Shown here: positions 34,334-51,953 of the stretch, piece by piece
Layout: each line of letters starts with the position of its first letter
Position numbering within the stretch: the stretch's first letter is position 1
Origin: Acidobacteriota bacterium
Lineage (GTDB): Bacteria; Acidobacteriota; Terriglobia; UBA7540
DNA length: 64,000 bases
NCBI GenBank assembly: GCA_021838785.1
Contig: JAKCCV010000015.1
Span: forward strand, 1-64,000
Reading direction: 5' to 3'
Translations under genes and position numbers: made by a program
The notes under the pieces: model-generated
Told to the model about the DNA's origin: nothing
Database searches by the model: none
Seen by the model: only the letters and a program-made list of their open reading frames with translations

Positions 34334-34362
34334 TTGACAAGGCCAAAATCAGAACGTATAGT
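34334..34362 (+). promoter_or_regulatory. sigma70-type promoter of the dcw cluster
   Basis: TTGACA at 34334-34339 and TATAGT at 34357-34362 are separated by exactly 17 bp, a near-consensus housekeeping promoter. It lies about 105 bp before mraZ and directly before the MraZ-type boxes, so it is the natural promoter of the cluster. Confidence 0.85.
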
Positions 34363-34371
34363 TCGTGGGCA

Positions 34372-34400
34372 GAAGTGGTAGAAAGTAGTAAAAAGTGTCA
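34372..34400 (+). promoter_or_regulatory. MraZ box: three 10-bp spaced AAGTG-type repeats
   Basis: AAGTGG at 34373, AAGTAG at 34383 and AAGTGT at 34393 recur at exactly one helical turn. MraZ proteins bind series of short direct repeats at their own promoter and repress the cluster. Placed just downstream of the -10 element, bound MraZ would cover the start of transcription. The middle unit has one change from the other two. Confidence 0.75.
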
Positions 34401-34466: not shown

Positions 34467-34907
34467 ATGCTACGCGGCAATTATCCAGCGACGGTGGACG
34501 GCAAAGGGCGGCTCAAGATTCCGGCGGCCTTCAAGAGTTATTTGGACGAAAATTTTGGCCAGGAATTTTACGTGACCAGCGTGGATGGCCAGTCGGTTTA
34601 CATTTACCCCTTTCCGGTTTGGAGGGCCCTCGAGGAAAAATTGGCGGCCCTGCCGTCGTTGAACAAATCCAAGAAGCGATTTCTAGACCGAGTGAATTAC
34701 TGGGGACAAGTCGTTCGGGCAGACGCGCTTGGCCGCCTGCTGATTCCCTCCTTGTTGCGCGAGTCGGCGGCGATGCGGGGCGAGGTTGCGGTGATCGGAT
34801 ATCTCGACCACCTGAACGTTTGGAACATGCAACGGTTCCAAGAACATCTGGAGCAGACGCCGTTTACGGATGAAGACGCCCAGGCACTGAGCGAACTCGG
34901 AATTTAG
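34467..34907 (+). CDS. mraZ: transcriptional regulator MraZ
   Basis: A 146-residue AbrB-like DNA-binding protein with two SpoVT-AbrB-type repeats: LRGNYPATVDGKGRLKIP at the N-terminus and GQVVRADALGRLLIP in the middle. It is the first gene of the dcw cluster and represses it by binding the repeats at 34372-34400. The start at 34467 has no strong ribosome binding site but matches the family N-terminus. Its stop (34905-34907) is in the same frame as rsmH. Confidence 0.93.
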   Translation: MLRGNYPATVDGKGRLKIPAAFKSYLDENFGQEFYVTSVDGQSVYIYPFPVWRALEEKLAALPSLNKSKKRFLDRVNYWGQVVRADALGRLLIPSLLRESAAMRGEVAVIGYLDHLNVWNMQRFQEHLEQTPFTDEDAQALSELGI

Positions 34908-41537: not shown

Positions 41538-42668
<1,131 letters not shown>

Positions 42669-42720
42669 AGCGCGGGCGATTTGACACCCTGAATTTTTGC
42701 GCATAAAATGCGCACGAACT

Positions 42721-42891
42721 ATGCCTAGGCCGAAATCCTTTCGCAACCCGATTCGCGTCAGCCTGACGCTCGATGGCAAGGTGTTGCGTGGAGCGCGGCG
42801 TCTGGCGCAGGCCAAGCGCCGCTCCCTGTCGGAGATGGTGTCAGAGGTTTTGAGCCGGTATCTGCGCAAGAACGGCAGGCGAAGCCTATGA
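42721..42891 (+). CDS. small ribbon-helix-helix protein inside the dcw cluster
   Basis: A 56-residue basic protein with the CopG/Arc-type pattern: a beta strand (IRVSLTLDG) then two helices (LRGARRLAQAKRRSLS, EMVSEVLSRYLRK). Such proteins bind operator DNA as dimers. Its stop overlaps the murD start (ATGA at 42888-42891), so translation is coupled to murD. An RHH gene between mraY and murD is not part of the standard dcw order. It might be a local regulator or an antitoxin whose toxin is missing; no partner is visible. Confidence 0.7.
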   Translation: MPRPKSFRNPIRVSLTLDGKVLRGARRLAQAKRRSLSEMVSEVLSRYLRKNGRRSL

Positions 42892-44684
42892 CCGACCTTC
42901 AAGGCCAGCGCGTGTTGGTGGTGGGCTTGGGGCGCAGCGGCCTGGCGGCGGCTCGGTTTTTAGCGCGGTGCGGCGCCGTCGTGATGGTCAGCGATCGCCG
43001 TCCCCCGGCAACACTCGCCCGCGAGGCTCGCGAGTTGATGGCGCAAAAGATCGGCGTGGAACTCGGTGTTCACCGCGAATCCACCTTCCTTCGGCAGGAC
43101 TTAATTGTGGTGAGCCCCGGGGTGCCGGCGGACTTACCAGCCCTCGACGCCGCGCGGCGGAAAGGCATCCGAATTGTTCCGGAAGTCGAGTTGGCAAGTT
43201 GGTTTATCGAAAGCCCGATCGTTGGAATCACTGGAACGAACGGCAAAACCACAACGACGGCTCTAACCGGCGCCATGTTGGAGGCTTCCGGTTTTCGGAC
43301 CTTCGTAGGGGGGAATATTGGCGTGCCTCTCATTCAGGCCGCCGAGCAGACTCCGCCGCCGGAAGTGATCGTGGCCGAACTGAGCAGTTTTCAGCTCGAG
43401 ATCATCGAGTCATTTCGAGCGACGGTAGCCGTTCTGTTGAATCTGTCCCCCAACCATCTGGACCGCCATCCTACCTACGAGGCTTATGCTCGGGCCAAGG
43501 CGCGAATCTTTGAGCATCAAAGGTCGAGCGACCAAGCCGTCCTCAACGCCGACGATCCCAACGTTGTGAAGTTGGCGAATGCCATCAAGAGCCAGAAAAT
43601 CTTCTTCAGTCGCCAGCGTTCGCTCACGAATGGCGTTTTCTTGGCCGAAGGGAAGCTGTGGCATCGGGTAGGTCATCTGGAGCGGGTGTTGATGGAACGG
43701 GGCGACATTCGGTTGCGAGGCGAGTTCAACCTGGAAAATGTGATGGCCGCCGCCGCCGCCGCTCTTGCGCTGGGGGCTAGCCTCGACGCCGTGCGCCGGG
43801 CGGCGCGCGAATTTCAAGGGGTGGAACATCGCTTGGAGTTCGTGCGGGAGATTGCCGGAGTTGCCTTCTACAATGATTCCAAGGCAACCAGCGTGGATGC
43901 CGCTGCCAAAGCGCTTTCGACCTTTGCCTCCGGCGTGCATCTGATTCTGGGCGGCAAGGATAAAGGCGCGCCTTACGCTCCGCTGCGGCCGCTGCTCAAA
44001 GGCCGCGTGCGGGAAATTCTTCTGGTCGGGGCTGCGGCGGAGAAAATTGCGCGGGAGTTAGCAGGCAGTACGGATCTGGTTCCCGCAGGAACCATCGAAG
44101 CGGCGGTCCGCCGTGCCTTCGCGCAGGCAGAGGCCGGCGACACAGTGCTTCTTTCGCCGGCTTGCTCGAGCTACGACCAGTATCATGATTTCGAAGAGCG
44201 TGGCCGTGCCTTTAAGCAAAGCGTTTCAGACTTGGCGGAAGAATACCTGCAAGGGAGGATTCGGCCCCGTAAGATTGCCGAACCTGACTTCCTGCTGCGC
44301 GCTCCGAACACGCGGCCTAACGACGCCCGGCAAGGAATCTTCAAACCGCCGGAGAGCGCCACCTCACTCAACCGGCCGTCTGCCAGCCCGACGGACGCTG
44401 AACCGCCGTTCGAGACCCTGACGCTGGACAACGGCAAGCCATCTTCCTCAGCGCGCGTTTCTGTGCCGCGCGAACTAATCTACACCTACGAAGTGGCGGC
44501 GGAAGAAGTGGCTCAGGGCGAGGAAGCCGGCGGCGCTCTAGAGGCTGACGGAGAGGCGGTGCAGGACTCCGCGCCTTCCGAACTCGGCACGACAGAGGAA
44601 CCGGAAGACGAGGCCCTGAGTTACGAGATACGCTCGGACGCGGCTCGGCTAACCCAGCCGCATCGGCCGGCGGGTCGAGGTTAG
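42888..44684 (+). CDS. murD: UDP-MurNAc-L-Ala-D-Glu ligase MurD with C-terminal extension
   Basis: A 598-residue protein; MurD is usually about 450. The ligase part (1-455) is normal: Rossmann start VLVVGLGRSGLAAARFL, ATP site GITGTNGKTTTTALTG, LSPNHLDRH, FYNDSKATS and LSPACSSYDQYHDFEERG. It adds D-Glu to UDP-MurNAc-L-Ala. Residues about 460-598 form an extra tail, rich in Pro/Ser then Glu/Ala (EEVAQGEEAGGALEADGE), without a recognised domain and probably disordered. The next gene starts 25 bp later. Confidence 0.93.
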   Translation: MTDLQGQRVLVVGLGRSGLAAARFLARCGAVVMVSDRRPPATLAREARELMAQKIGVELGVHRESTFLRQDLIVVSPGVPADLPALDAARRKGIRIVPEVELASWFIESPIVGITGTNGKTTTTALTGAMLEASGFRTFVGGNIGVPLIQAAEQTPPPEVIVAELSSFQLEIIESFRATVAVLLNLSPNHLDRHPTYEAYARAKARIFEHQRSSDQAVLNADDPNVVKLANAIKSQKIFFSRQRSLTNGVFLAEGKLWHRVGHLERVLMERGDIRLRGEFNLENVMAAAAAALALGASLDAVRRAAREFQGVEHRLEFVREIAGVAFYNDSKATSVDAAAKALSTFASGVHLILGGKDKGAPYAPLRPLLKGRVREILLVGAAAEKIARELAGSTDLVPAGTIEAAVRRAFAQAEAGDTVLLSPACSSYDQYHDFEERGRAFKQSVSDLAEEYLQGRIRPRKIAEPDFLLRAPNTRPNDARQGIFKPPESATSLNRPSASPTDAEPPFETLTLDNGKPSSSARVSVPRELIYTYEVAAEEVAQGEEAGGALEADGEAVQDSAPSELGTTEEPEDEALSYEIRSDAARLTQPHRPAGRG

Positions 44685-44709: not shown

Positions 44710-45801
44710 ATGGCAAGGCGACTCGAATCGGATCGCATCTTATTCGGAGCGGTGGTCGTTCTGGTGATGTTTGGCATCCTCATGGTCTTCAGCGCCTCGG
44801 CGGTCATTGCCGCCGACCAATTTCACTCCAGCTACTATTTTGTGATTCGGCAAGCGATCTGGGCGGTACTGGGGCTGGGCATCATGCTGGTCATGATGAA
44901 CGTGGATTACCGGCGCTTGAAAAGCCCTTTACTGCTTTTCCCGGCGCTCGGGTTGCAACTAATTCTGCTGCTCGCCGTCTTGTTTGTTCGAGCAGACCAT
45001 GACACCCACCGGTGGATTCGACTGGGGCCGGTGACCATTCAGCCTTCGGAGTTCGCGAAAATCGTTCTGGTGATTTTTCTCGCCTATTTTTTAGACCTGC
45101 ACAAGGACTCGATCAATGATTGGCGGAAGACCCTGTTGCCGGTGGGCCTGGTGGCCGGACTCGACGCGATGCTGATTCTTCGCGAGCCGGACTTTGGAAC
45201 CACGCTGGCCATTGCCGTGATTGTGGGCGCGATGATGTTTGCGGCCGGCCTGCGCGTTTCGTATTTTGTGGCCGGTGGGCTGGCGTCGGTTCCGCTGCTT
45301 TATCTTCTGATTTTCCACGTCGGATATCGTTATCGGCGCATCATGGCTTTTCTCCATCCCTACGCGCATCCGCTGGGGGCAGGGTTCCAAATTATTCAGT
45401 CCTACATTGCGGTTGGCACAGGCGGCATTACCGGCGCGGGGCTGATGGAGGGCAAGGAAAAGCTCTTTTACCTGCCGGAACCCCAGACAGATTTTATTTT
45501 CGCGGTCATCGGAGAAGAATTGGGACTGATTGGGGCGCTGTTGGTGCTGGTGCTGTTTGGCGTGATTCTTTGGCGGGGTCTGCGTGCCGCGGCTCGCTGT
45601 CAGAATGATTTCGGGCGGCTGCTCGCCATTGGTCTTACGTCGCTGGTCGTGATTCAGGCGCTTGTCAACATGAGCGTGGTCATTGGCCTGCTGCCCACGA
45701 AAGGCGTGCCACTGCCCTTCGTTAGCTATGGAGGCTCTTCGCTGCTGATGAGTTTGTTTGCCATGGGGATTTTGCTGAATATCTCGCAGAACACGAGCTG
45801 A
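44710..45801 (+). CDS. ftsW: septal peptidoglycan polymerase FtsW
   Basis: A 363-residue SEDS-family membrane glycosyltransferase with about ten helices that polymerises lipid II at the septum with FtsI. Family blocks: GPVTIQPSEFAKI, GPxxIQ-type region, GAGFQIIQSYIAVGTGGI, EELGLIGALLVL and VPLPFVSYGGSSL. It begins 25 bp after murD and is followed by murG after 6 bp. Confidence 0.95.
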   Translation: MARRLESDRILFGAVVVLVMFGILMVFSASAVIAADQFHSSYYFVIRQAIWAVLGLGIMLVMMNVDYRRLKSPLLLFPALGLQLILLLAVLFVRADHDTHRWIRLGPVTIQPSEFAKIVLVIFLAYFLDLHKDSINDWRKTLLPVGLVAGLDAMLILREPDFGTTLAIAVIVGAMMFAAGLRVSYFVAGGLASVPLLYLLIFHVGYRYRRIMAFLHPYAHPLGAGFQIIQSYIAVGTGGITGAGLMEGKEKLFYLPEPQTDFIFAVIGEELGLIGALLVLVLFGVILWRGLRAAARCQNDFGRLLAIGLTSLVVIQALVNMSVVIGLLPTKGVPLPFVSYGGSSLLMSLFAMGILLNISQNTS

Positions 45802-45807
45802 GATTGA

Positions 45808-46980
45808 ATGGTGAGCGCCACCAGAATCGAATCGGACAGATGCGCGGCCGGAGCCACCGCGGCTGACTCCAGGGACTACGATCAGCCGAAGCCTACGGCC
45901 GCAGGAAGCCGGCCTTTGCGGGTGCTCATGGCAGCCGGAGGCACCGGCGGGCACATTTTCCCGCTCCTCGCGGTGGCGGAGCAATTAAAAGCCGCGGGAG
46001 CGGCGGAAATCGAGTTTGTGGGCACCGGACGACCGCTCGAAGCGCGAATTATTCCTGCCGCGGGTTTCCCGTTGCGGACCGTCCACGCCGCCGGACTCAA
46101 AGGCATCCGGGGTTGGAAACAAATTCGCAACCTCATGGTGCTTCCGCGAACGGCGCTCGACATGGCGCGGGAGTTGAGGCGAGTGAAGCCGCGCGTGGTG
46201 GCGGGCATCGGAGGTTATCTGGCTGGTCCGGCACTGCTGGAAGCCGCGCTAGCGGGCATTCCGACGCTTTTGATTGAGCCGAATGCGGTGCCGGGGTTTA
46301 CGAATCGTGTCTTGGCGCCGGTGGTGCGGCGAGCCGCGTTGGGGTTTGAGGCGGCCGCCAAATTTTACGGCAGCAAGGCGCGCGTAACCGGCCATCCCGT
46401 GCGACGCGAATTCTTCGACGTGCCGGCGAAGCCCCCCTTGCCGCTGACGTTGCTGATCCTTGGTGGAAGCCTCGGAGCCCGGACTCTGAATCGGCTGGTG
46501 GTGGCGAGTCTGGGCGAAATCCGAGGCGAGGGACTCAGCTGGAGGATCGTTCATCAAACCGGCGAGGCGGACTACGAAACTGTCCGCTCCGCTTACGCGG
46601 AGCAGGGTGTGGAGGGCGAAGTTCGCCCCTTCATTGATAAAATGTCGGAGGCGCTGGGCGCGGCGCATTTGGTGGTTTCGCGGGCCGGAGCCTCCGCCGT
46701 TGCCGAACTGGCGGCGGCCGGCAGACCTTCGCTGTTGATACCCTTTCCAGCCGCGACCGGTCAGCATCAGCTCTTCAACGCCCGCGAATTGGAGCGTGCA
46801 GGCGCGGCCTGGGTGCTCGAAGAGAAGGAAGCTACTCCCGAGCGGTTTTCCCATCTTCTGCTCGACCTGATGCGGGACAGCGCGCGATTGCAGGAGATGG
46901 GACGGCGTGCCCGCGCCCTGGCCCACCCGGGCGCCGCGCAGCAGATTGCTCAGATGATTGTGGAGTTGGGCGCCGGTTAA
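45808..46980 (+). CDS. murG: UDP-GlcNAc transferase MurG
   Basis: A 390-residue GT-B glycosyltransferase that converts lipid I to lipid II on the inner membrane face. AAGGTGGHIFPLLAVAE, the second Gly-rich loop LGGSLGARTLN, and SRAGASAVAEL match the family. The first 30 residues (Asp/Ala-rich) are extra to the usual N-terminus; a start inside (ATG 45928, MAAGGTGGH) is possible. The 3' end is 90 bp from murC. Confidence 0.94.
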   Translation: MVSATRIESDRCAAGATAADSRDYDQPKPTAAGSRPLRVLMAAGGTGGHIFPLLAVAEQLKAAGAAEIEFVGTGRPLEARIIPAAGFPLRTVHAAGLKGIRGWKQIRNLMVLPRTALDMARELRRVKPRVVAGIGGYLAGPALLEAALAGIPTLLIEPNAVPGFTNRVLAPVVRRAALGFEAAAKFYGSKARVTGHPVRREFFDVPAKPPLPLTLLILGGSLGARTLNRLVVASLGEIRGEGLSWRIVHQTGEADYETVRSAYAEQGVEGEVRPFIDKMSEALGAAHLVVSRAGASAVAELAAAGRPSLLIPFPAATGQHQLFNARELERAGAAWVLEEKEATPERFSHLLLDLMRDSARLQEMGRRARALAHPGAAQQIAQMIVELGAG

Positions 46981-47070
46981 CCGGCGGAAGGCAGGCGACC
47001 TAGGCGGAGACAATCCGCAGGGGCGGGCGCAGCCGAAAATGCCACCCGCGGAGTGAGACGCGCAGGAACC

Positions 47071-48498
47071 ATGAGTAACGGCCAGTTGATTTTGGGAAGA
47101 ATCCGAGCCATTCACTTTGTCGGAATTGGCGGCGCCGGCATGAGTGGCATCGCGGAGGTGTTGTTGAACCTGGGTTTTAAGGTTTCTGGCAGCGACCTGC
47201 GAACAACTTCGGTGACCGACCGATTGCAACAGCTCGGAGCCAAAATCATGGTCGGCCATGCGCCCGGCCACGTCCACGGCGCGCAGGTGGTGGTGGTATC
47301 TTCCGCGGTTCCCCCAGAGAATCCGGAAATTGCGGAAGCCGCAAGGTTGCAGATTCCGGTCATCCCGCGGGCCGAAATGCTGGGCGAATTGATGCGCCTG
47401 AAATTCTGCGTCGCGGTCGCGGGCGCGCACGGCAAGACCACCACGACTTCGATGATCGCGGTGATGCTGGCGGAAGCCGGGCTCGATCCCACGGCGGTGA
47501 TTGGCGGCCGGCTCGATGCCTTTGGGTCGGGCGCGCGTCTCGGCAAAGGGGACGTCATGGTGGTGGAGGCGGATGAGAGCGACCGCTCCTTTCTTTATCT
47601 CTTGCCGAGCCTTGCCGTGGTGACCAACATTGACCGCGAACATTTGGACCACTACCGAGACTTGGAAGAGATTGAGACGGCCTTTGTCTCATTCGTCAAC
47701 AAGGTGCCTTTCTATGGGGCGGTGATTGCGTGCGCGGATGAGCCGTGGCAAGCATCACTCGAAAGGATTCTGCCGCGGATTCGGCGCCGTGTGGTGACCT
47801 ATGGGCTGGAGGGTCAAGCGGACGTGACGGTGAAACGGCTCGATCTGGGCGCTAGACAATCAGAGCTGGAGGTCGTGGTCAAGGGGAAGCCGATGGGGCG
47901 CGTCGTCGTGCATGTTGCCGGGCAGCACAACGCGCAGAATGCGCTGGCCGCGGTGGCCGTGGGCCTCGAACTCGATCTGACGGCGGGACAAATCTGCCGC
48001 GGCCTGGAGCGGTTTCATGGCGCGGATCGCCGCTTCCAGATTCTTGCGGAGGTGGATGGGATTACCGTCGTGGATGATTATGGTCATCATCCGACTGAGA
48101 TTCGAGCCACGCTGGAAGCGGCCCGCCTTCGAGCGCCTCGCCGGCTGTGGGTGGTTTTCCAGCCGCATCGCTACACGCGGACAAAGCTGTTGATGGATGA
48201 ACTGGCCGCCTGTTTTGACGGCTGCGATGGAGTGGAAATTCTCGATATTTATCCGGCCAGCGAGACGGCCATCCCCGGTATTACTTCCGAGCGCTTGGTG
48301 GAACGCATGAAGGAACTGGGTTTTGACCGCGCCCGGTACGCCCCTTCGGAGCCGGCACTCGTCCAAGAATTGCTGGACCGAGTTCGGCCAGGGGATCTGC
48401 TGATGACAGTAGGCGCCGGCAACGTCTGGAAGGTTGGAGAGGCCATTGCCAAGGGGTTAAAGGCTCGGGCGGCCCGAGCCGAACCCGCGCAGCCATAA
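47071..48498 (+). CDS. murC: UDP-N-acetylmuramate-L-alanine ligase MurC
   Basis: A 475-residue Mur ligase adding L-Ala to UDP-MurNAc. [21 protein letters not shown] site [34 protein letters not shown] and [14 protein letters not shown] are all present. ATG 47071 with AGGA upstream is preferred over a GTG at 47053. After murC the usual murB and ddl are absent; ftsQ follows after 73 bp. Confidence 0.94.
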
Positions 48499-48571
48499 CG
48501 CAAGCTTGACGCTTGCGAAGGAACGTAGAGGCTCGCTGCTAGGCGACGATGAGGGATGGTAACTGGGGGGC

Positions 48572-49498
48572 ATGGTTGATTTGGATCTGAATGGGCTCAG
48601 CGCGGAGGGAGAATCGCCTTACCTCCGTCGCGGCAAACCGATTGGAGTGCGGCGCGGACACCTGCCTCGTCGCGGGCGAAGGCTGCTGGCGTGGGCGTGG
48701 TTCGGCTTGGTGGCCGTCGCACCGGCGGGCTGGGCCGGCTACGCCATCGCTCGCTTCGCCTTGGGGTCGCCCCGCTTTCAGCTTTCTTCGCCGACAGAGG
48801 TGACGATTACGGGAAATCGTTTCGTTTCCCGGTCGGAAATTCTGAACGCCATCGCCTTGTTCAACGACTCAGAAACCTCTCGCGGGTTCAATCTTTTTCG
48901 GGCGCCGCTTGGGGCGCTTCAAAAGCGAGTGGAGTCCATTGCTTGGGTGAAATCGGCCACCGTGATGAGGGCTTTTCCCCGCCGTCTGGTGATTGCCGTG
49001 ACCGAAAGGGTGCCGGTGGCCTTTGCCGATATTCGAGGAGAAATTGAACTTGTGGATGCCGGCGGGACAATCCTCGATAACCCCGGCCAAACCGCCTTCG
49101 ACTTTCCCGTATTGGAAGGACTTAGAATAGACCAAACCCCTTCTGACCGCGCTGAGCGCGTTGGTTTATACTGCAAATTTATGCGGGAGACCGCGCGCCA
49201 GGTGCCAGCGACCGGCTGGATGATTTCCGAGGTACGATTAAACGACCCGGAGGATTTGGAGGCGCTCCTGGTCCACGGCTCCGAAACCCTGCTGCTTCGC
49301 TTCGGGCACCGGGATTTCTCGAGCCGCTTCCAGAATTTCCTAGCGCTCCTGCCGCAGCTTGAAAAGCACAGTGCCAAAATCGCATCCGTGGATCTGCGGT
49401 ACGGGCATCAGGTGGTGGTGGAACCGGCCGGCGGGGAAAGTGCCGCTCCGACCAAGTCCGACGCGCCCGTGCCGGGCAGCTCTGGGATTCGAGATTAG
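48572..49498 (+). CDS. ftsQ: cell division protein FtsQ
   Basis: A 308-residue bitopic protein: basic cytoplasmic N-terminus (RRGHLPRRGRRLL), one membrane helix (about 44-65), a POTRA domain (FQLSSPTEVTITGNRFVSR to about 135) and the FtsQ domain (ITERVPVAFADIRGE). It links FtsL/B and other divisome parts. The last 25 residues are Pro/Ala/Ser-rich. It starts 73 bp after murC. Confidence 0.9.
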   Translation: MVDLDLNGLSAEGESPYLRRGKPIGVRRGHLPRRGRRLLAWAWFGLVAVAPAGWAGYAIARFALGSPRFQLSSPTEVTITGNRFVSRSEILNAIALFNDSETSRGFNLFRAPLGALQKRVESIAWVKSATVMRAFPRRLVIAVTERVPVAFADIRGEIELVDAGGTILDNPGQTAFDFPVLEGLRIDQTPSDRAERVGLYCKFMRETARQVPATGWMISEVRLNDPEDLEALLVHGSETLLLRFGHRDFSSRFQNFLALLPQLEKHSAKIASVDLRYGHQVVVEPAGGESAAPTKSDAPVPGSSGIRD

Positions 49499-49516
49499 AG
49501 AAAAGGATACGTTGTC

Positions 49517-50740
49517 GTGGTGACCAGAGAGCAACCCATCGTCGGCATTGACGTGGGCAGCAGCAAAACCTGCGCCTTGATTGGCTATGCCAGCGAGACG
49601 GGCAACCTTGAAATCGCCGGCTTTGGAGTGGGCGAATCCAAGGGATGGCGAAAGGGCATTATCGTCAACCTGGATGCTGCCGTACTCGCCATCAAGAAGG
49701 CTGTGGAGGTGGCGGAACAGGCGGCCGGCGTAGCCGTAGATTCGGCCTATATTGGGGTGGGCGGGCCGCACGTGCGTGGCGTCAATGCTCAGGGCTCGAT
49801 GCTCGTGGCCAATCGTGCCCGCGGCGTCACTCAAGAAGACATTCGCCAAGCCGTCCGCGCCGCCCAAGGAGTGGCTTTGCCGCCCGACCGCGAACTGCTC
49901 CACGTGCTGCCCCAGGAATTCTCGCTCGATTCGCAGGACGGCATTCGAGACCCTTTGGGCATGGTCGGAACGCGGCTGGAAGCCAATGTGCATTTGATCA
50001 CCGCTTCCACGAGCGCTTGGCAAAACGTCGTGAATGCCGTCAACAAGGCAGGGATTGAAATTCCGGAAGGGGGAACCGTCTTTGAAGCGCTGGCCAGCGC
50101 GGAGGCGAGCTTGAGTGCCGACGAGCGCGAGCTCGGTGTGGCGCTGGTGGACCTGGGCGCGGGCTCAACCGATTTGATCGTTTATTCCCGCCGCACCGTC
50201 CGCTACACGGCGTCCATCCCGATTGGTGGCGACCACTTCACCAATGACATCGCGGTGGGTTTATGCACCCCCATCCCGGAGGCGGAAAAGATGAAGCGTG
50301 CCTGGGGGCAGCGTGACCCTTCCCAGTCGGAGCCGGGCGCGCTCGAGGTGCAGAGCGTTGGTGAGCGGCCCGCCCGGGTGGTGAGTTACGCCAAACTCAA
50401 TGAGATCATCGAGCCGCGCGCCCTTGAACTGTTGGAGCTCATAGGGGCCGAGCTGCGGCGATCCGGATATTTAGACCAACTTGGCGCGGGGATGGTGTTG
50501 ACCGGCGGAGGCGCCCGCCTGGGCGGATTCGCCAGGTTGGCGGAACTGACGCTTTGCTTGCCGGTGCGCGTGGCGCGACCTTTGGGTTTGGAGAAGACTC
50601 GCGTGGATCTGGCCGACCCGGCCTACTGCACGTTGGTCGGGCTGGTGGCTTATGGCAAGCGGATGCGGCTGCTTCGAGATTCACGGAATAAGGGATTGGT
50701 GGGAAAATTGTGGGGAGCATTGCGCGGGCCGATGGCCTGA
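49517..50740 (+). CDS. ftsA: cell division protein FtsA
   Basis: A 407-residue actin-like ATPase that anchors FtsZ to the membrane. ATP site [14 protein letters not shown] and [14 protein letters not shown], the SHS2 1C region (VNVNxxGxxx-type [11 protein letters not shown]), and [17 protein letters not shown] are typical. The C-terminal amphipathic helix [12 protein letters not shown] fits membrane binding. GTG 49517 is followed by a second GTG 3 bp later. It is 34 bp before ftsZ. Confidence 0.94.
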
Positions 50741-50774
50741 AGCGGTCTCGAATGAAGAAAGACAAGGAGTCATA

Positions 50775-51953
50775 ATGGCCAATGAAGATTCCAAGGTCGC
50801 CGACATCCGAGTGGGCTTTTCCGACAACTTGCGGCGGGGCGCCAAAATCAAGGTGATTGGCGTTGGCGGCGGCGGCGGGAACGCCGTCAACCGCATGATT
50901 GCCGCCAAGGTGGAAGGCGTGGAATTTATGGCCGCCAACACCGACCTTCAGGCCCTGCAAGCATCTCGCGCTCCCATCAAGATTCAACTGGGCGCCAAGC
51001 TGACCAAAGGGCTGGGCGCGGGCGCGAACCCCGAGGTCGGCCGCGCCGCCGCGCTCGAAGATACGGATAAAATTGTCGAGGCCCTCGAGGGCGCCGACAT
51101 GGTCTTTGTGACCACCGGTCTTGGGGGTGGAACGGGCACGGGCGGCGCTCCAATTGTGGCCAGCCTGGCTCGCGAATTGGGCGCCTTAACGGTGGCCGTG
51201 GTCACCAAGCCTTTTGCGTTTGAGGGTAAGCGCCGCATGATGCAGGCCGAGCAAGGGCTCGGCGAGCTTAGCCAGGCCGTGGACACCGTGATTTGCATTC
51301 CCAACGAACGCCTCATGCAATACGTGGACAAATGCACGAGCTTCTTTGAGGCTTTTCGCATCGCCGATGATATCCTGCGGCAGGGCGTGCAAGGCATCTC
51401 CGACATCATCACCATTACGGGCATCATCAACCGCGACTTTGCGGACATCAAAACCATCATGGAAGGCATGGGCTACGCGGTAATGGGAACGGCGACGGCG
51501 CGAGGAGAGAATCGGGCCATTGAAGCCACCAACAAAGCCATCGCCAGCCCACTGCTCGAAGACGCTTCGATTAACGGCGCGCAGGGCATCCTGCTCAATA
51601 TTACCGGCTCAAGCAAACTCACCCTGCACGAAGTGCATGAAGCTTCGACCATTGTTCAGCGCGCCGCCGCGGAAAATGCCAACATCATCTTTGGGGCCGT
51701 GCATGACGAGGCCATGCAGGATGCCGTGAAGGTGACGGTCATCGCCACGGGCATCAAGTCGGAGCGCATGGGCGTGAGGCCGGGCGCGGCGTTTTCTCCC
51801 GCTCTTCGCTCGGCGCAACAAAGCGTGAAGAACGCGCTCCTCAAAAAAGACAAGCTTCCGATTGAGGCCCCGCCGCAAAATGTGACCGCACCTCTTCCCG
51901 GGGATGACCTCGACGTGCCCGCATTTCTGCGGCGCCGTAAGCCGGGAGGCTAA
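50775..51953 (+). CDS. ftsZ: cell division GTPase FtsZ
   Basis: A 392-residue tubulin-like GTPase forming the Z-ring. GTP signature [11 protein letters not shown]-terminal [19 protein letters not shown]7 loop region [13 protein letters not shown], and the C-terminal anchor peptide LDVPAFLRR that binds FtsA. Start 50775 has AAGGAG 5 bases upstream; the longer frame from 50652 lies inside ftsA. It ends the dcw cluster. Confidence 0.97.

Follow-up and report, generated by a model that had tools for sequence, protein, structure and literature searches.

Few gene orders in bacteria are as well conserved as that of the dcw cluster, whose known self-encoded regulator is MraZ. In the window analysed here (the whole 64,000-nucleotide stretch of acidobacterial DNA), a short gene, termed rhh, lies between mraY and murD. 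A preliminary description had read it as a 56-residue ORF of the ribbon-helix-helix (RHH) type that overlaps murD by an ATGA, and had offered two roles for its product: a second local regulator beside MraZ, or an antitoxin captured into an essential operon. The question raised by this locus is what a protein of this kind would do in the middle of the dcw cluster. As judged from comparison of related genomes, the RHH protein is probably a dedicated autorepressor of an internal dcw promoter, which it would control through a single operator.

The dcw cluster and its head promoter

The cluster of the window runs in the order mraZ, rsmH, (ftsL), an ftsI-type PBP gene, murE, murF, mraY, rhh, murD, ftsW, murG, murC, ftsQ, ftsA and ftsZ (Table 1). 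Pfam matches were obtained for MraZ, RsmH/MraW, the FtsI-type PBP, MurE, MurF, MraY, MurD, FtsW, MurG, MurC, FtsQ and FtsA. The names murE, murF, murC and mraY rest partly on gene order and recognition, because Pfam gave only general Mur-ligase domains for the first three and Glycos_transf_4 for the last. Two further genes we take, by recognition, to be ftsL and ftsZ.

The -10 box of the promoter before mraZ is followed by TGGGC and TGGTA, ten bases apart, which we take to be MraZ-box-like repeats, so the head promoter looks conventionally MraZ-controlled. MraZ is found in 35 of the 39 genomes of the window's family. All 22 genomes that hold rhh are among these 35 and carry mraZ as a separate gene, which makes the RHH protein an addition to MraZ and not its replacement. 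The rhh product itself, whether from the window or from the other members, has no Pfam MraZ match. Four family genomes of 58–85% completeness (G021, G029, G035 and G062) have neither a MraZ match nor an RHH gene; possibly these are cases of missing contigs, or of real loss of both regulators.

Table 1. Position of rhh, its promoter region and the surrounding dcw genes in the window
Feature	Position	Strand	Basis
Head promoter before mraZ	34334..34380	+	TTGACA 34334, TATAGT 34357, TGGGC 34366, TGGTA 34376
mraZ	34467..34907	+	Pfam MraZ, E 4.4e-20
mraY, upstream neighbour	41538..42668	+	Ends 52 bases before rhh; Pfam Glycos_transf_4 and gene order
Sigma-70-type promoter	42681..42709	+	TTGACA 42681-42686, 17-base spacer, TAAAAT 42704-42709
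27-bp conserved stretch around the dyad, outer ATT ... AAT included	42693..42719	.	Column counts, weight matrix
Presumed operator core TGCGCAT-AAA-ATGCGCA	42698..42714	.	Centred on the -10 box
rhh, 56-aa RHH protein	42721..42891	+	ORF with ATG start; family orthologues; RHH by profile and, less firmly, by model
murD	42888..44684	+	Pfam MurD; start shares ATGA with the TGA stop of rhh
Genes presumed to complete the controlled unit: ftsW, murG, murC, ftsQ, ftsA, ftsZ	44710..51953	+	Pfam for ftsW to ftsA; presumed co-transcription
ftsZ	Probably from 50775	+	Recognised; in-frame ATG at 50775

rhh is a gene of one acidobacterial family

The ORF, its neighbours and its orthologues bear out the first reading of the locus as an RHH-type frame placed between mraY and murD and overlapping the latter. 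Orthologues stand ahead of murD in 22 of the 39 genomes of the family. In all 22 loci murD follows directly, and in 21 mraY precedes, the contig ending first in the remaining one (G020). The 4-base overlap with murD is kept in 21 of the 22 (in L095 it was taken from coordinates), the exception being L006 with a gap of 125 as aligned. The ORF is a real gene and not a chance ORF, since 22 family genomes hold it, it is under purifying selection and its members share a start Met, which is aligned in 22 of 22. Over the first 52 codons the median pN/pS is 0.24 and the maximum 0.47 (210 pairs from 21 sequences, with L020, the one gapped row, left out). Residues invariant in all 22 members include R3, P4, K5, S6, R8 and P10 in the N-terminal arm, R12, L15, T16 and L17 in the expected strand, and S35, L36 and S37 at the second helix.

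The neighbouring MurD of the window is 598 aa long, with Pfam domains up to residue 426; the matches of its relatives mostly stop near 450–484. The resulting tail of about 145 residues (window 44241–44684) has a low-complexity, acidic look, and almost its whole length can be aligned with the proteins of G003 and G018.

Beyond the family, no comparable gene was detected among 360 other genomes of the class or 395 other genomes of the phylum (these samples overlap). Among 61 genomes searched with the protein, of which 37 belong to the same family, 24 have a match at E ≤ 0.001. The 21 strong ones (E ≤ 2.1e-13) are all from the family, the window's own included, and G061 is a further family genome with rhh. 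When 399 class genomes were searched with a profile, 24 matched at E ≤ 1e-6; of these, 22, all in the family, reach E ≤ 3.3e-29. The two outside the family both lie at about 1e-7: one (L022) is a longer RHH protein encoded away from dcw genes, the other a weak match in G515 (L148). The phylum sample of 396 genomes yielded 20 matches at E ≤ 0.001, the only strong one being the window's own and the rest standing at 1.8e-6 or weaker. None of the 24 weak RHH loci from the 61-genome and phylum searches has an adjacent dcw gene at E ≤ 1e-3, and plasmid and phage collections contained no rhh match at E ≤ 0.01. L027, among the matches listed in a contig search, encodes the same protein as the locus of G003 and, as a duplicate, did not enter the counts.

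The rhh product is an RHH protein by profile and, less firmly, by model

The strand-helix-helix core of the protein has profile similarity to the RHH (MetJ/Arc/CopG) superfamily. DUF6364 (PF19891) matches 21 of the 22 members at E ≤ 0.1, with a best value of 5.6e-7, and RHH_1 matches 6 of the 22. An hhalign comparison of dcw rhh with 16 RHH proteins from elsewhere gave 98% over residues 10–49. Taken alone, the window protein falls below every Pfam gathering score and has no NCBIfam match. In a sequence search of the PDB it matched CopG at E 0.02, ranked after a chance homeobox match at E 0.011.

Two AlphaFold models were obtained. The first, from an alignment of 22 close relatives, is poor (pLDDT 65) and not RHH-like. 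The second, a monomer with pLDDT 76, is predicted to consist of an extended segment followed by two helices; its alignment combined 20 dcw members (L005 and L020 left out) with the 16 RHH proteins and hence leans towards RHH. Foldseek matches this second model best with the CopA_SO antitoxin, CopG, StnY and Arc, at probabilities of 0.94–1.00 and with no E below 0.029. Homologues at the site in relatives are accompanied by an RHH assignment that the profiles carry and the model follows less firmly.

The rhh product is 56–70 aa long and ends soon after helix 2; the 16 aligned RHH relatives have 69–90 aa. It is little more than a DNA-binding domain and misses most of the C-terminal region of the antitoxin-like relatives, where type II antitoxins have their toxin-binding part. 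This bears on the proposal of a captured antitoxin, and on an orphan antitoxin that an essential operon would retain against a toxin encoded elsewhere. Toxin-like genes are frequent neighbours of the weak RHH relatives, and Pfam assigns the partners of L025 and L026 (in the family) and L097 (in the phylum) to PIN or PemK/MazF. Such neighbours suggest an antitoxin-type ancestry of rhh, but not its present function: none of the 22 loci has a toxin ORF between mraY and murD, the protein lacks most of the region mentioned above, and the single conserved operator described below stands at one place. We consider an orphan antitoxin highly improbable, and of the earlier proposal at most the remote ancestry stands.

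A conserved dyad is centred on the -10 box of the rhh promoter

Upstream of rhh one promoter is predicted, against a shuffle mean of 0.0. Promoters at all 22 rhh loci score 10–11 of 12, a value matched by 0–7 of 200 shuffles. A conserved dyad, TGCGCATAAAATGCGCA, has its centre on the -10 box of the promoter before rhh in every one of the 22. The arrangement of promoter and dyad is constant in all 22, despite a distance to mraY that varies from 54 to 322 bases (the distance in L008, which rests on a partial mraY match, is left out). From the -10 box to the ATG there are 11 bases in the window, 14–15 in 15 loci and 69–125 in 6, and with so short a distance most genomes would make transcripts from the rhh promoter that have almost no leader.

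Two TGCGCA half-sites, with centres 11 bp apart, flank the TAAAAT -10 box. Of the 13 symmetric pairs in the 27-bp stretch, seven show complementary bases at every one of the 22 sites; one does so in 21, and the others do so in fewer. The central AAA is not symmetric, the outer pairs are partly so, and one pair is imperfect (C-A) in 8 of the 22 sites. The GCGC arms are nearly invariant across the 22 sites; a sigma-70 promoter has no need of them. The dyad is a candidate operator that overlaps the promoter of rhh in every locus and to which the RHH protein would bind.

An inverted repeat of this kind could also work as an RNA hairpin in a read-through transcript, and the window sequence can indeed form a hairpin of 7 bp. 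Conservation follows a different pattern, however: the stem pair is C-A in the 8 sites mentioned, a two-sided change that keeps the pairing (T-A) occurs in one site only, and the AAA of the loop and the outer bases are conserved as well, around a centre that coincides with the -10 box. Moreover, no terminator is predicted, and the folding is unremarkable (z -1.42, with 18 of 200 shuffles as good). A role as a hairpin is hardly credible.

The presumed operator occurs once per genome and only together with rhh

Of the 39 family genomes, 22 contain the degenerate core GCGYATAAAATRCGC exactly once and 17 lack it, and all 22 sites of this core stand before an rhh gene. Its reversed control is found in 0 of the 39, and the 17-base core is absent from 395 other genomes of the phylum. 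With one mismatch allowed, the 17-mer has 20 sites in the 39 family genomes, every one before rhh. With two mismatches, the remaining two rhh sites appear together with 14 sites elsewhere, versus 13 for the control. In the genome of the window, up to three mismatches recover the operator (scored once per strand), 3-mismatch sites and a single site with two mismatches, located inside a long ORF that we take by its look to encode a TonB-dependent receptor; the control gives 2 + 2. A matrix built from the other 21 sites reveals no second operator in the window, the best unrelated score being -4.8 against 43.7. No regulon beyond the rhh promoter was found in the own genome at up to three mismatches or in the 39 family genomes at up to two. 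Given one site per genome, with matches elsewhere at about the level of the control, the presumed regulator appears to have its own promoter as its single target.

The own-genome search also surfaced, as 3-mismatch matches to the operator, a separate repeated sequence, AGCGCARAAAACGCGCA, with eight copies on one contig (C38; L121–L128), seven of them within about 6.4 kb.

Genomes without the gene complete the comparison. In 15 family genomes the mraY–murD junction could be read and contains no intact rhh; 34–299 bases separate the two genes, and the operator is present in none. A clear promoter is missing there too. The best candidate, in G017, scores 9 of 12 (matched by 11 of 200 shuffles), and the other junctions score 5–8. 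G002 and G033, which have no detectable mraY, no RHH match and no operator, were counted neither way. Thus, the presence of the dyad follows that of rhh in every assessable family genome. One of the junctions is instructive: in G012 (L081) a shortened rhh frame keeps the murD overlap beside a decayed dyad, and G025, of the same genus, is intact. The shortened frame is called a remnant because the start, the reading frame, conserved motifs and the murD overlap remain (tblastn E 0.002). A match in G030 was rejected as a remnant, its tblastn E of 9.6 being too weak.

Gene, promoter and dyad could come and go as one block, so their co-occurrence alone is no proof of binding. Inheritance as a block would also be compatible with a dyad that is read by another protein while the RHH protein acts elsewhere. 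We regard this as very improbable in view of a site that occurs once in the genome and never without rhh, and of the dyad of G012, decayed beside its shortened gene. MraZ in particular is a poor candidate for the other reader: many family genomes without the site have MraZ, and its box-like repeats stand before mraZ.

Proposed mechanism

In the autorepressor reading, for which we infer binding, the direction of repression, the extent of the transcript and the feedback role from sequence comparison, RHH dimers would bind the two half-sites that flank the -10 box and so keep RNA polymerase out. At low levels of the RHH protein, the promoter would fire and give rise to an rhh-murD-(ftsW-murG-murC-ftsQ-ftsA-ftsZ) transcript. 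The ATGA coupling would tie RHH synthesis to that of MurD, so that the RHH level would report the expression of the distal operon and a negative feedback loop would be closed. The distal dcw genes would then have a self-limiting supply in addition to read-through from the MraZ-type head promoter, and the cluster would encode regulators of its own at two places, with MraZ at the head and the RHH protein at the mraY/murD junction. The rhh product has no ligand-binding domain, and simple homeostasis is therefore the default for its role. The suggestion of a second local regulator beside MraZ has thus gained strong comparative support from the position of the gene and from the promoter-centred dyad that follows it. 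Against autorepression weigh the imperfect symmetry of the dyad, the dispensability of rhh within the family and the indirect nature of the fold evidence.

It is unlikely that the RHH protein binds the dyad but activates the promoter, or switches its effect with its level. In every one of the 22 loci the dyad lies across the -10 box, and a protein bound there is expected to exclude the polymerase; furthermore, with -35 and -10 boxes so close to consensus the promoter should scarcely require an activator. For activation speak the facts that direction is unreadable from sequence and that small RHH proteins with wide or mixed effects are described, e.g. CdrS of Haloferax with 18 ChIP-seq sites (PMC8406309, as far as the accessible text goes).

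If the RHH protein is a repressor, it would be an antitoxin-type DNA-binding domain turned into the private thermostat of an operon, removable together with its promoter. The pair is small, a 56-aa protein and a 27-bp site. We see even chances that the dcw cluster of this family is run as two self-regulated halves, in which MraZ sets mraZ–mraY and the one-site RHH repressor sets murD–ftsZ. Homeostasis on the MurD/FtsZ side would then be uncoupled from the genes for lipid precursors and the septal transpeptidase.

Relation to known regulators

CopG and Arc are short RHH autorepressors that act as dimers, and both are among the best fold matches of the dcw RHH model. RelB, also an RHH protein, is reported to repress its own promoter through paired 6-bp repeats (PMC2812701, accessible text). 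Unlike these proteins, which come from a plasmid, from a phage and from a toxin-antitoxin locus, the dcw RHH protein is encoded in an essential chromosomal operon and has no toxin partner, and its repeat, TGCGCA, differs from theirs. DUF6364 proteins and type II RHH antitoxins share the RHH domain by profile, and the DUF6364 relative L097 precedes a PIN-domain gene; the dcw protein differs from them in lacking most of the C-terminal region and a toxin neighbour.

Closest in arrangement is the CdrS/CdrL system of haloarchaea. According to the accessible text of the report (PMC7439475), CdrS is a 55-aa single-domain RHH protein encoded immediately 5' of the division gene ftsZ2 and co-transcribed with it, and its partner CdrL binds reproducibly only upstream of the cdrS-ftsZ2 operon; the CdrS regulon is wider, with the 18 sites mentioned above. 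The likeness is one of arrangement and size as described. The systems differ in that CdrS/CdrL is archaeal and stands beside ftsZ2 outside a dcw cluster, and in that its single-site binder is the longer CdrL.

MraZ resembles the RHH protein in being encoded in the dcw cluster and in controlling its own operon, the latter as proposed here for the RHH protein; MraZ of B. cenocepacia is reported to regulate a strong promoter that precedes mraZ (PMC7761207, accessible text). MraZ differs in its fold and family, in the location of its repeats before mraZ, and in being encoded at the very start of the cluster. The accessible text of PMC8871954 names 17 genes for the longest dcw cluster, with MraW and MraZ as its regulatory members.

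In the literature searched, which leaves most subscription journals outside its coverage, no paper was found that joins the dcw cluster with an RHH gene, nor was the 17-base core found in print. Papers with ribbon-helix-helix and murD look unrelated by their titles and the starts of their abstracts, and a search for Acidobacteria, cell division and RHH returned only a transcription-factor survey, as far as the accessible text goes. RHH autorepressors and dcw regulators are known already, and their pairing was not found in the literature searched.

Gain and loss of rhh

Being missing from 15 assessed family genomes, rhh is dispensable. A second dcw-encoded regulator with a single operator would constitute a natural experiment, with sister genomes that have it and sister genomes that do not, the promoter being lost alongside. 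Two questions become testable: whether expression from murD to ftsZ needs a feedback loop of its own, and by what route such a loop enters and leaves an essential operon.

On an MraY tree of 36 rows (21 with rhh and 15 without), the presence of the gene changes at least 5 times, and three of these changes are forced by well-supported branches. Shuffling gives a mean of 11.7 changes, and 0 of 500 shuffles are as low. The tree has a midpoint root only and omits G020 because its mraY lies off the contig. With this root, an early gain of rhh followed by repeated loss is the simplest reading of the sequences, horizontal transfer being the alternative to loss that they also allow.
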